Positions 48,302 to 56,588 of a DNA stretch of 64,000 bases are shown here, in pieces. The number at the start of each line of letters is the position of its first letter. Position 1 is the stretch's first letter. The notes under the pieces are model-generated. The model saw nothing but the letters and a program-made list of their open reading frames with translations, did not search any database and was not told the DNA's origin. A program made the position numbers and the translations under genes. The stretch is from Candidatus Eiseniibacteriota bacterium (lineage in GTDB: Bacteria > Orphanbacterota > Orphanbacteria > Orphanbacterales > Orphanbacteraceae), in the NCBI GenBank assembly GCA_029262235.1, contig JAJCZU010000004.1, forward strand, positions 310,001-374,000, written 5' to 3'.

Positions 48302-48429
48302 TCGACGTGGACGGACCCCCGACCGGCGTATCCCGTACGCACGCGAGCTGACTCCGCGACTGACCTTCGGGGTGCCTCACGAAACGTCCTCCGGGAGCGG
48401 CCTCACGAAACGCGTTCTCCTGCCGCCTG

Positions 48430-48444: not shown

Positions 48445-48513
48445 ATGTCTGTCGCGATCGCCTCTGCATTCATTCGTACTTTTCATTCCCTCCTTCAGGA
48501 TCGAAATTCATGA
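48445..48513 (+). CDS. Putative 22-residue leader peptide coupled to the Rieske-ThDP gene
   Basis: ATG at 48445 opens a frame starting MSVAIAS and ending LLQDRNS. Its TGA overlaps the ATG of the Rieske-ThDP gene (ATGA at 48510-48513). It starts right at the predicted transcription start, as expected of a leaderless upstream ORF. Its stop position is exactly right for translational coupling. It could also be chance; no regulatory codon run is present. Confidence 0.35.
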   Translation: MSVAIASAFIRTFHSLLQDRNS

Positions 48514-50456
48514 GCAAGACCGTCTGGCACAAAGTACTCGAGGACAAATCCGAACTTCCCGAAGGGCGCGTGACTACGGTAACGGCGGGTCACCTCGGGA
48601 TCTGTCTCACGCATTTCGAAGGGAAATTTGCGGCCCTCGACAATCGCTGCCCGCATCAGGGGGGACCACTCGGCGAGGGGTCGATCGAGAACGGCATGCT
48701 GCGCTGCCCGTGGCACGGCTGGGACTTTCATCCGTGCACGGGACTGCCGCCCGGCGGCTATGATGACGGCGTCGCGACGTTTCCCGTGAAGGAGGAGAAC
48801 GGCGCTGTTTTCGTGGGTATTCGAGAAGAGGCCGCGCATACGGAAACGGTCGCCGACGTCATGATCCAGACGATGACGAACTGGGGCGTGGACACCGTGT
48901 TCGGCATGGTCGGGCACAGCAATCTCGGTGTCGCCGACGCGATGCGGCGCATGGAGAAGCAGGGAAAACTGCGCTACTACGGCATTCGCCACGAAGGGGC
49001 GGCTTCGTTCGCCGCGTCCGCCTACGGCAAGCTCACGGGGCGGCCGGCCGCGTGTTTTGCGATTGCGGGCCCGGGCTCCACGAACATGTTCACGGGGCTC
49101 TGGGACGCGAAGGTCGATCGCGCCCCGCTGCTCGCGCTGACGGGCCAGGTCGACACGCAGGTGCTCGGCACAGGCGCGTTTCAGGAAGTCGATCTCGTGC
49201 GCGCGTTCCAGACCGTGGCCGACTTCAATCACTCGGTGCAGGCGAAGAGCAAACACGCCGAACTCATGTCGCTCGCAATCAAGCACGCGCTCCTGAACCG
49301 CGACGTTTCGCATATCACGTTTCCCGACGAAGTACAGGTAACCCCGAAGGCGAAAGGGGAGAAGGCGCAGACGCCCGAAGGACGCATGGCGCCGCACACG
49401 ATCGCACCGCCGGTCGAATCGCTGACCGAAGGGGTGCGCTTGATCCGCGCGGCGAAACGGCCCGTTATCATTGTCGGCTACGGCGCGCGCTTCGCGATGG
49501 ACCGGATCACGGCGATGGCGGAGAAACTCCACGCGCCTGTGATCACGACGTTCAAGGCGAAGGGGCTCATTGCCGACGACCATCCGAACGGCTGCGGTGT
49601 GCTCGGCCGGTCGGGAACGCCCATCGCCTCCTACTTCATGAACGAGTCCGATCTTCTGGTCGTGTTCGGCGCGTCGTTCTCGAACCACACCGGGATTACG
49701 CCGAAGAAACCGATCATCCAGGTCGACTTCGACCCGAACGCGCTCGGTAAATTCCATCCCGTGCAGGTGCCGGTCTGGGGCGAGATCTCCGTTACGGTCG
49801 ATTTGATGCTCGCAGGAATGGGAGACAACCTGCCCGCTATCGACACGCGCCCTGAAATCGCGGAGCGCTGGCGGCTCTGGCGCGAGGAAAAAGCGAGCAG
49901 GCTGCGCGACGATCGCGGCGCCGGCATCAGCTCCATTGCCGTCTTCGACGCCATGAACCGTGTCGTGCCCGACAACGCCGTGATCGCGGTCGACGTGGGG
50001 AACAACACGTACTCGTTCGGGCGTTACTTCGAATGCAAACACCAGTCGATCCTGATGTCCGGGTATCTCGGCTCGATCGGGTTTTCGTATCCCGCGGCGA
50101 TGGGAGCGTGGGCGGCATGCGGTGACAAGCGCCCGGTCTGGTCGGTGTCGGGCGACGGCGGTTTCGGGCAGTACCTTGCCGAAGTCACCACGACCGTAAA
50201 GTACGACATGGCGATCAAACACGTTCTCCTCAACAATTCCGAGCTCGGCAAGATCTCGAAAGAACAGCGCGCGGCCGAGCTCGATGTCTGGCAGACGAAA
50301 CTGCACAATCCGAATTTCGCGGAGTACGCCACGAACTGCGGCGCGCTCGGCATTCGCGTCGAGAAGCGCGAGGATCTCGAACCGGCGATGAAGAAGGCGC
50401 GCGATCATGGCGGACCTGTGCTGCTCGAAGTGCTGTGCGACGTGGCGTTGATCTAG
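48510..50456 (+). CDS. Rieske [2Fe-2S] domain fused to ThDP-dependent pyruvate oxidase/decarboxylase-like enzyme
   Basis: 648 residues from MSKTVWHKV at 48510. Residues about 5-105 form a Rieske ferredoxin with CPHQGGPL (C47, H49) and CPWHGWDF (C67, H70). From about 115 a full three-domain ThDP enzyme follows: RHEGAASFAA with the cofactor-activating Glu (about 162), a central domain (RPVIIVGYGARFAMD), and the ThDP motif GDGGF ending in NN (about 548-576). The fold resembles pyruvate oxidase (PoxB) or acetolactate-synthase-like decarboxylases. The Rieske cluster could take electrons from the keto-acid-derived carbanion. Substrate not known. Confidence 0.88.
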   Translation: MSKTVWHKVLEDKSELPEGRVTTVTAGHLGICLTHFEGKFAALDNRCPHQGGPLGEGSIENGMLRCPWHGWDFHPCTGLPPGGYDDGVATFPVKEENGAVFVGIREEAAHTETVADVMIQTMTNWGVDTVFGMVGHSNLGVADAMRRMEKQGKLRYYGIRHEGAASFAASAYGKLTGRPAACFAIAGPGSTNMFTGLWDAKVDRAPLLALTGQVDTQVLGTGAFQEVDLVRAFQTVADFNHSVQAKSKHAELMSLAIKHALLNRDVSHITFPDEVQVTPKAKGEKAQTPEGRMAPHTIAPPVESLTEGVRLIRAAKRPVIIVGYGARFAMDRITAMAEKLHAPVITTFKAKGLIADDHPNGCGVLGRSGTPIASYFMNESDLLVVFGASFSNHTGITPKKPIIQVDFDPNALGKFHPVQVPVWGEISVTVDLMLAGMGDNLPAIDTRPEIAERWRLWREEKASRLRDDRGAGISSIAVFDAMNRVVPDNAVIAVDVGNNTYSFGRYFECKHQSILMSGYLGSIGFSYPAAMGAWAACGDKRPVWSVSGDGGFGQYLAEVTTTVKYDMAIKHVLLNNSELGKISKEQRAAELDVWQTKLHNPNFAEYATNCGALGIRVEKREDLEPAMKKARDHGGPVLLEVLCDVALI

Positions 50457-50458
50457 GT

Positions 50459-51160
50459 ATGAGACTGACGCGACATTCGGAAGGCCATCGGGTCGGGATC
50501 GGCGGATGGCTTCGCGCGGCGGTTCTCGGCGCGAACGACGGCGTGGTGTCGACCGCCAGCCTCGTGATCGGCGTTGCCGCGGCGGACGCCTCGACGCCGG
50601 CGATCATCACCGCCGGCCTTGCCGGTCTCGTGGGCGGCGCGCTTTCGATGGCAGTCGGCGAATACGTGTCCGTCAGTTCTCAGCGCGATGTCGAAGAGGC
50701 GGATCTCGAGCAGGAACGCGCCGAGCTTCGCGATCAGCCCGAGCACGAGCTGCACGAACTCACATGGCTCCTGACGACGAAGGGCATGAGCATGGAGACG
50801 GCACGCGCGGCCGCGCACGAAATGACGGAACACGACGCACTGGGAGCGCATGCACTCGAAGAACTCGGGATTCGGCCCGGCGAACTGGCCCGCCCGATGC
50901 AGGCGGCCGTCGTTTCGGCGCTGGCATTTGCGCTCGGCGCCGCGCTGCCCCTTCTCGCAATCGCGCTCTCTTCGGTCTCCACCCGCATGGGGATCACGGC
51001 TGCCGCCACTCTGCTGACGCTGACCGTTCTCGGCGCGTGGAGTGCGCGGCTCGGCGGTGCCCCTGTCGGGCGCGCGGTGCTCCGCGTCCTGCTGGGCGGC
51101 GTGATTGCCATGGGGCTCACGGCCGCCATCGGCTATCTTTTCGGCGCGGCGGTCGGGTAG
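50459..51160 (+). CDS. VIT1/CCC1-family Fe/Mn transporter
   Basis: 233 residues from the ATG at 50459, 2 nt after the previous stop. The family signature WLRAAVLGANDGVVSTASLVIGVAAAD is followed by LAGLVGGALSMAVGEYVSVSSQRDVEEADLEQER, an acidic cytoplasmic helix (metal-binding Glu residues) and three further membrane segments. VIT1/CCC1 proteins export Fe2+ or Mn2+ from the cytosol. Its close spacing to an Fe-S enzyme suggests co-transcription and a link to iron handling; inference only. Confidence 0.9.
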   Translation: MRLTRHSEGHRVGIGGWLRAAVLGANDGVVSTASLVIGVAAADASTPAIITAGLAGLVGGALSMAVGEYVSVSSQRDVEEADLEQERAELRDQPEHELHELTWLLTTKGMSMETARAAAHEMTEHDALGAHALEELGIRPGELARPMQAAVVSALAFALGAALPLLAIALSSVSTRMGITAAATLLTLTVLGAWSARLGGAPVGRAVLRVLLGGVIAMGLTAAIGYLFGAAVG

Positions 51161-54728: not shown

Positions 54729-56588
54729 ATGAACAAGCAAGTCTCAGCCGTTACGGAACGGATTGTCCGAAAGAGCCGTGCCTCGCGCGAGGCGTACCTG
54801 GCCCATATCGAACGCGCGAAGGGAGCCGGTCCGTCGCGCTCGAGCCTTTCCTGCGGCAACCTCGCGCACGGGTTCGCCGCGTGCGCACCGGTGGAGAAGA
54901 AGGATCTCGCAGCCGACGTCAAGTCGAACATCGCGATCATCTCCGCCTACAACGATATGCTCTCCGCCCATCAGCCGTATCGCGACACGCCGGAGCTCAT
55001 CAAGAGTGCCGTTCTCGAAGCGGGCGGCGTCGCGCAGTTCGCCGGCGGGGTGCCCGCCATGTGCGACGGCGTCACGCAGGGACAGCCCGGCATGGAGCTT
55101 TCGCTTTTCAGCCGCGACGTGATCGCGATGTCGACGGCAATCGCGCTCTCGCACAACATGTTCGACGGCGGCCTCTGTCTCGGCATCTGCGACAAGATCG
55201 TGCCGGGACTTCTGATCGGCGCGCTCTCGTTCGGCCATCTCCCGTTTATCTTCGTTCCATCAGGACCCATGAAGTCGGGCATTACGAACGACAAGAAAGC
55301 AAAAGTGCGCCAGCAGTTCGCGGCAGGCAAGATCGGACGCGACGAACTGCTCGCTTCGGAATCGAAGGCGTACCACAGTCCGGGAACCTGCACGTTTTAC
55401 GGCACGGCCAACAGCAACCAGATGCTGATGGAGATCATGGGCCTGCATCTTCCGGGCGCCTCGTTTGTGAACCCGGGAACGGATCTGCGTCATGCGCTTA
55501 CGCGGGCGGCTTCGCAGAAGGTGCTGAAGCTCACGGCCCTGGGCGATGACTATCGGCCGATCGGGCGACTCATGAGCGAAAAGACGATCGTGAACGGCAT
55601 CGTCGGGCTGCTTGCGACGGGCGGGTCCACGAATCACACGATTCACCTCGTCGCGATTGCGCGCGCCGCCGGAATCCGCATCGACTGGGACGACTTCTCG
55701 GCGCTGTCTGATGTGGTGCCGCTCATGACGCGCATCTATCCGAACGGCAGCGCGGACGTGAACCATTTTCACGCAGCCGGGGGAACGGGCGTGTTGATCC
55801 GCTCCCTCCTGCAGGGCGGCTTCCTGCATGAAGACGTGGAGACCGTTACCGGCGGGAACGCGGGACTGAGCGAATACTGCAGCGAGCCGGTGCTCGACGG
55901 GAGCGGAAACCTCACATGGCGCGACGCTCCGGAACAGTCGCACGACACGACCGTTCTCGCTTCGATCGACGCACCGTTTGCGAAAGACGGCGGTCTCAAA
56001 CTTTTGAAGGGGAATCTGGGACGCGCCGTCATCAAGACGTCGGCCGTAAAACCGGAGCTGTGTACGGTGACCGCGCCCGCGGTCGTGCTCGACCATCAGG
56101 ACGAACTGGCGGCGAAGTATCACGCGGGCGAACTGCCCGACGACTTCATTGCCGTGCTCCGCTTTCAGGGGCCGCGCGCGAACGGCATGCCGGAGCTGCA
56201 CAAGCTGACGCCGCTGCTCGGCATCTTTCAGGACGCGGGCCGCAAAGTCGCGCTCGTTACCGACGGTCGCATGTCGGGCGCGTCGGGGAAAGTGCCGGCC
56301 GCGATTCACGTTTCGCCCGAGTGCGTGAACGGGGGGGCGCTGGCGAAAGTACGAAACGGCGACATGATTGCGCTCGACGCCGCGGCGGGGACGCTGCAGG
56401 CGCTGGTGCCCGAAGACGAATGGGAGCGCCGCGCGCCGCACACGCCCGATCTTCACGAGAATGAAATCGGCATGGGCCGGGAGCTGTTCGGCGGCTTTCG
56501 TACGAACGCGACGAGTGCCGAAGAGGGCGCCGTGACGTTCGTGCACCGCTTTACGATCGCGGAGCAGATGACCATGGAGACGACATGA
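54729..56588 (+). CDS. edd: 6-phosphogluconate dehydratase
   Basis: 619 residues, about the usual length. Fe-S dehydratase motifs are [23 protein letters not shown] (about residue 112), [16 protein letters not shown] and [27 protein letters not shown] (about 218), with Cys residues to hold the [4Fe-4S] cluster; [23 protein letters not shown] closes the active site. The [14 protein letters not shown] block distinguishes Edd from dihydroxyacid dehydratase. Converts 6-phosphogluconate to 2-keto-3-deoxy-6-phosphogluconate. It overlaps eda by 4 nt (ATGA). Confidence 0.95.

Follow-up and report, generated by a model that had tools for sequence, protein, structure and literature searches.

The window analysed here, a 64,000-nucleotide stretch of DNA from a Candidatus Eiseniibacteriota bacterium, encodes at positions 48,510 to 50,456 (plus strand) a protein of 648 amino acids in which a Rieske iron–sulfur domain precedes a complete ThDP enzyme. 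With a probability of roughly 0.6, the protein is a soluble, iron–sulfur-fused 2-oxoacid oxidase of the pyruvate oxidase branch, with its electrons leaving through a low-potential Rieske cluster to a protein partner and not to quinone or O2. To our knowledge, the textbook flavin–ThDP enzymes POX and PoxB have O2 or quinone as their only acceptors. A family found in bacteria and haloarchaea that combines a covalently attached iron–sulfur carrier with a natural exchange of that carrier and a redox neighbour that is conserved would open a third route for the electrons beside these two.

While the ThDP core belongs to a known type, neither the family of fusions nor the exchange of its carrier has been described, as far as the open literature shows, although InterPro or UniProt may list the architecture without a function. 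A search of the open-licence literature returned nothing relevant on a Rieske–ThDP or a Rieske–glutamate-synthase protein, nor a characterised family member, nor papers on the active sites of POX or PQO; a report in a subscription journal could exist. In the RefSeq plasmid records examined, the proteins bear only the name “thiamine pyrophosphate-binding protein”, and the fusion is thereby hidden.

Gene and Domain Organization

The open reading frame runs from an ATG at 48,510 to a TAG stop at 50,454–50,456. This start is backed by an alignment: 46 homologues also begin there, and a longer GTG start at 48,372 is left unsupported. Four Pfam matches, all exceeding their gathering cut-offs, follow one another on the plus strand: a Rieske [2Fe-2S] domain (PF00355, E 1e-14; residues 10–78, 48,537–48,743), the N-terminal (PYR) domain TPP_enzyme_N (PF02776, E 6e-34; residues 113–230, 48,846–49,199), the central TPP_enzyme_M (PF00205, E 3e-33; residues 309–430, 49,434–49,799) and the C-terminal (PP) domain TPP_enzyme_C (PF02775, E 2e-33; residues 495–641, 49,992–50,432). 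The two parts thus lie in a single chain, as had been proposed in a sequence-only reading of this DNA.

Within the Rieske fold, the CxH...CxxH ligand set is formed by C47-P-H49 (48,648–48,656) and C66-P-W-H69 (48,705–48,716). The sequence-only reading had correctly described this set as complete and named C47/H49; its second pair, C67/H70, was numbered one residue too high. Its description of a complete ThDP fold was accurate, with the activating Glu at E162 in the PYR domain alongside F224 and Q225, and the GDG...NN motif at 548–550 and N575–N576 in the PP domain, together with V496, K581 and E585. The central domain is the one that binds FAD in PoxB, POX and AHAS. An AlphaFold2 model of the fusion has a mean pLDDT of 87.6 and a pTM of 0.85, with a low-confidence loop at residues 217–228 that contains F224 and Q225. 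The ThDP active site of the fusion is formed between subunits.

Relationship to Known ThDP Enzymes

A family search for the same fusion, as the sequence-only reading had recommended, yielded 123 homologues from bacteria and haloarchaea, and the conservation counts given here refer to these. The placement of the family among ThDP enzymes is made at 26–34% identity. The closest solved relatives by sequence are PoxB (E 4e-66) and POX, and the top Foldseek matches of the model are from the same enzymes (3eya, 1y9d and 4fee; TM by target 0.76–0.86). In the tree, the family joins PoxB/POX at forks of 99–100%. The best NCBIfam score is that of the PRK08611 pyruvate oxidase, at 402 bits against a cut-off of 742; the PoxB model PRK09124 (295 against 792) and the AHAS equivalog TIGR00118 (296 against 538) likewise remain below their cut-offs.

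Escherichia coli PoxB, the pyruvate dehydrogenase (cytochrome) or pyruvate:quinone oxidoreductase (3ey9, 3eya), shares with the family the three ThDP domains, the activating Glu, the pocket and the FAD-domain segments. However, it has no Rieske domain, carries F465 and possesses a C-terminal membrane tail, whereas the family has the Rieske domain and a Lys, and its chain ends at about PoxB residue 530, where this membrane- and lipid-binding tail would start. The POX/SpxB enzymes of Lactobacillus and Bacillus (1pow, 4fee) have the fold and pocket in common with the family but differ in F479, in the absence of the N-terminal Rieske domain and in a longer C-terminus: 132–143 residues follow the GDGGF motif in two POX sequences, compared with 101–102 in the family.

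The N-Terminal Electron Carrier

A full set of Rieske ligands is present in 122 of the 123 members, and the closest solved relatives of this domain are the dioxygenase-type soluble Rieske ferredoxins. These include the naphthalene NDO ferredoxin (2qpz) and CarAc (1vck), which share the Rieske fold and the CxH...CxxH set. The ferredoxins of dioxygenase systems have low potentials and are diffusible, whereas the Rieske domain of the family is fused to a ThDP enzyme.

The sole member without a Rieske domain (L125, G194:C291:7004-8626) comes from one genome that is 86% complete. It carries two rubredoxin-type domains ahead of the ThDP part instead, a Rubredoxin match and a RUBY_RBDX match, the latter a rubrerythrin-type rubredoxin. 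Three further members, from genomes G222 (L124/L173), G443 (L170) and G550 (L169), are extended to about 860–870 amino acids in the order CDGSH-Fer4_19-CDGSH-Rieske-ThDP. Every collected member has some one-electron carrier at its N-terminus, of one type or another. Because folds that differ but have one-electron transfer in common sit at a single end of this enzyme, the exchange is the best evidence on the role of the N-terminus and suggests that it moves electrons for the ThDP site.

Active Site and Putative FAD Domain

Residues E162, F224, Q225, D495, V496, D549, K581, I582, E585 and Q586 never vary among the 123 members. F224, Q225, V496 and E585 align with PoxB F112, Q113, V380 and E469, which, with their POX equivalents, form the pyruvate pocket. 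A PoxB-like active site is supported, with both ThDP and pyruvate-pocket residues kept in every member.

One position departs from this pattern. K581 (codon at 50,250–50,252) aligns with F465 of E. coli PoxB and F479 of L. plantarum POX, the residue between ThDP and FAD in these enzymes. It is Lys in 123/123 members, while other relatives have Phe, Met, Gln or other residues and none of the comparison set has Lys. Judged by this alignment, Phe is not universal in the POX/PoxB branch. The invariant Lys could signal a substrate more acidic than pyruvate.

The alternatives to a pyruvate oxidase wired to an iron–sulfur carrier overlap with it in part. The first concerns the substrate, which might be a dicarboxylic 2-oxoacid (2-oxoglutarate, for example) or else a dicarbonyl arising from stress; K581 would then pair with the additional negative charge, and the fusion might belong to a stress module. 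K581 and the GKISKEQ motif, neither of which resembles pyruvate oxidases, are consistent with such a substrate. So are the neighbouring genes for a Rieske-glutamate-synthase-like protein (2-oxoglutarate/glutamate chemistry), an FMN reductase and a Na+/H+ antiporter, as well as the MerA-like and dihydrolipoyl dehydrogenases encoded on haloarchaeal plasmids. This reading is nonetheless somewhat unlikely, as the pocket residues F224, Q225, V496 and E585 of PoxB/POX are all retained.

The second alternative concerns the flavin. It has been considered that FAD is lost or only structural, with electrons jumping to the Rieske cluster straight from the ThDP carbanion or radical. This route would fit both the Lys that never varies at the F465/F479 position and the presence of a one-electron carrier, of whatever type, in every collected member. 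However, the FAD domain retains G323xG325, T347F348, G366xSG, GxSFS and D406, with G323, G325, T347, F348, G366, S368, G369, G387, S389, F390 and D406 each found in 123/123 members. The segments that align with the FAD segments of PoxB (251–254, 274–278 and D292) are invariant or nearly so. Moreover, other flavin-dependent relatives with Met or Ala-Phe at the F465 position in the alignment still use FAD. Since the FAD-domain segments are conserved, FAD may well be kept by the family, and a direct transfer from ThDP to the cluster is unlikely. The sequence-only reading had suggested that the cluster could accept electrons directly: the accepting role gains indirect support from the rubredoxin swap and the CDGSH/Fer4 additions, while for the word “directly”, meaning without FAD, the strongly conserved FAD-site segments of the middle domain stand on one side, and the invariant Lys and the missing PoxB C-terminal tail on the other.

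A non-oxidative carboligase or decarboxylase of the acetolactate synthase type, with FAD and Rieske cluster serving structural, protective or redox-sensing roles, is quite improbable. In its favour, structures of AHAS and HACL are almost equally good matches, AHAS keeps a non-redox FAD and Rieske domains can in principle act as sensors. However, oxidases rank first in both sequence and fold, the tree unites the family with PoxB/POX, and the carrier exchanges preserve electron-carrier chemistry without a common fold, which would be unexpected of a structural element.

Proposed Electron Route

The fusion, the ligand sets, the PoxB-type pocket, the Phe-to-Lys change, the loss of the tail, the carrier exchange and the gene neighbours are read from the sequence; we infer the substrate, the direction of the electrons, the presence of FAD and the partner. 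In the favoured iron–sulfur-fused oxidase, ThDP would decarboxylate a 2-oxoacid, with pyruvate as the most likely one. Both electrons of the (hydroxyethyl)ThDP would then exit singly by way of the low-potential Rieske [2Fe-2S] cluster at the N-terminus, perhaps with a retained FAD as an earlier stop. The cluster is proposed to hand them to a soluble or membrane-bound Rieske or flavin partner, while neither membrane quinone nor O2 would receive them. A good candidate for this partner is the co-inherited Rieske-FMN glutamate-synthase-like protein, and in many Bacteroidota a heme-b membrane protein ending in a Rieske domain may take its place.

If this is true, the enzyme would be an iron–sulfur-wired pyruvate oxidase that is PFOR-like in effect and of different ancestry. 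The likeness to PFOR/OFOR lies in ThDP-dependent decarboxylation with electrons leaving through iron–sulfur clusters. PFOR/OFOR enzymes have another ThDP architecture, are CoA-dependent and use 4Fe-4S ferredoxin clusters, in a domain layout that is non-homologous to that of the family. More broadly, and only tentatively, the family may constitute a distinct group of 2-oxoacid oxidoreductases in bacteria and haloarchaea. Its POX-type ThDP core would feed covalently attached, exchangeable carriers (Rieske, rubredoxin or CDGSH/4Fe-4S), bypass quinone and O2, and deliver electrons to the Rieske-FMN glutamate-synthase-like enzyme or the Rieske-tailed heme-b protein, as an analogue of PFOR. The family makes a clear question testable, namely whether the attached cluster is reduced by the substrate, with or without FAD.

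Distribution and Descent

The family occurs in Bacteroidota, Acidobacteriota, Balneolota, Actinomycetota, haloarchaea and several further phyla. A scan of GTDB species contigs revealed at least 568 relatives, the best 80 of which are all full-length fusions (67–76% identity), mostly from marine Bacteroidota, with Balneolota and Acidobacteriota in addition. Plasmids of Halorubrum, Halorarius, Haloferax and Salinirubellus carry the fusion at 60–61% identity, and a Mycobacteroides abscessus plasmid does so at 55%. A chance or assembly fusion, a frameshift and contamination are ruled out because the fusion is found end to end in all 80 best loci and on these haloarchaeal and mycobacterial plasmids (55–61%). 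A search for viral relatives found none.

Occurrence is patchy: the fusion is present in 5/386 sampled genomes around the window's genome, its own included, and in 34/379 sampled genomes of one larger phylum. It was found in none of six other genomes of the window's phylum, one of which is only 82% complete. A restriction to the window's lineage is ruled out by this absence and by the presence of the fusion in other phyla. All sampled family members form one clade (support 100/100), in which the window sequence groups with Bacteroidota, Balneolota and Acidobacteriota sequences at a 100/99 fork. As only one of seven genomes of the phylum has the fusion and the tree places it among other phyla, horizontal acquisition by the window's genome is likely.

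Gene Neighbourhood

Of the Bacteroidota-type loci, 55 have nearly complete flanks. Among these, a Na+/H+ antiporter is encoded in 51, the Rieske-glutamate-synthase-like (FMN) protein (Rieske-GltS) in 45, a family of about 250 amino acids of unknown function (c3) in 33, and a ferric-reductase-like membrane protein with a C-terminal Rieske domain in 23. The Rieske-GltS gene adjoins the fusion in 57 of 80 Bacteroidota-type loci and in 17 loci of further phyla; c3 does so in 14 loci of those further phyla (flanks there are mostly about 1.5 kb, and a few of the loci cover the same place). Two haloarchaeal plasmids also have Rieske-GltS beside the fusion (56% identity), and on haloarchaeal plasmids the neighbours include the MerA-like and dihydrolipoyl dehydrogenases. 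An FMN_red protein recurs beside the fusion in M. abscessus and in G222 (54–57%).

This association suggests Rieske-GltS as a partner of the fusion. It is not an obligatory one, since it was undetected in several fusion-bearing genomes (e.g., G012, G194, G222 and G550) and is present without a detected fusion in G001 (82% complete) and G005. In the window's genome, both Rieske-GltS (C10:71766-73358, on another contig; 64% identity) and c3 (C4:742377-743183) lie away from the fusion.

In Rieske-GltS (e.g., L030 ORF 4), a Rieske domain is joined to a glutamate-synthase-like domain that binds FMN and has a C-x5-C-x4-C motif. The c3 family (e.g., L022 ORF 4) has an invariant WPHHFD motif and gives no significant match in a Pfam search. 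The ferric-reductase-like heme membrane domain with its C-terminal Rieske was seen in 30 Bacteroidota-type loci (e.g., L077 ORF 9, 343 amino acids); Pfam detects no FAD/NAD domain in it, and it was not found in the window's own genome. In G443 and G550, the fusion gene is followed by a rhodanese gene and a histidine-specific methyltransferase (EgtD-like) gene.

Directly downstream in the window, a gene for a VIT1-family (CCC1-like Fe/Mn) transporter (50,459–51,160, plus strand; PF01988, E 2e-64) starts 2 nucleotides after the fusion stop and is probably co-transcribed with it. As a conserved partner it is ruled out, a VIT match occurring in none of the other loci retrieved. Further along, an ORF at 54,729–56,588 resembles, as judged by eye, phosphogluconate dehydratase (Edd) and would place a gene of a pyruvate-yielding pathway near the fusion.
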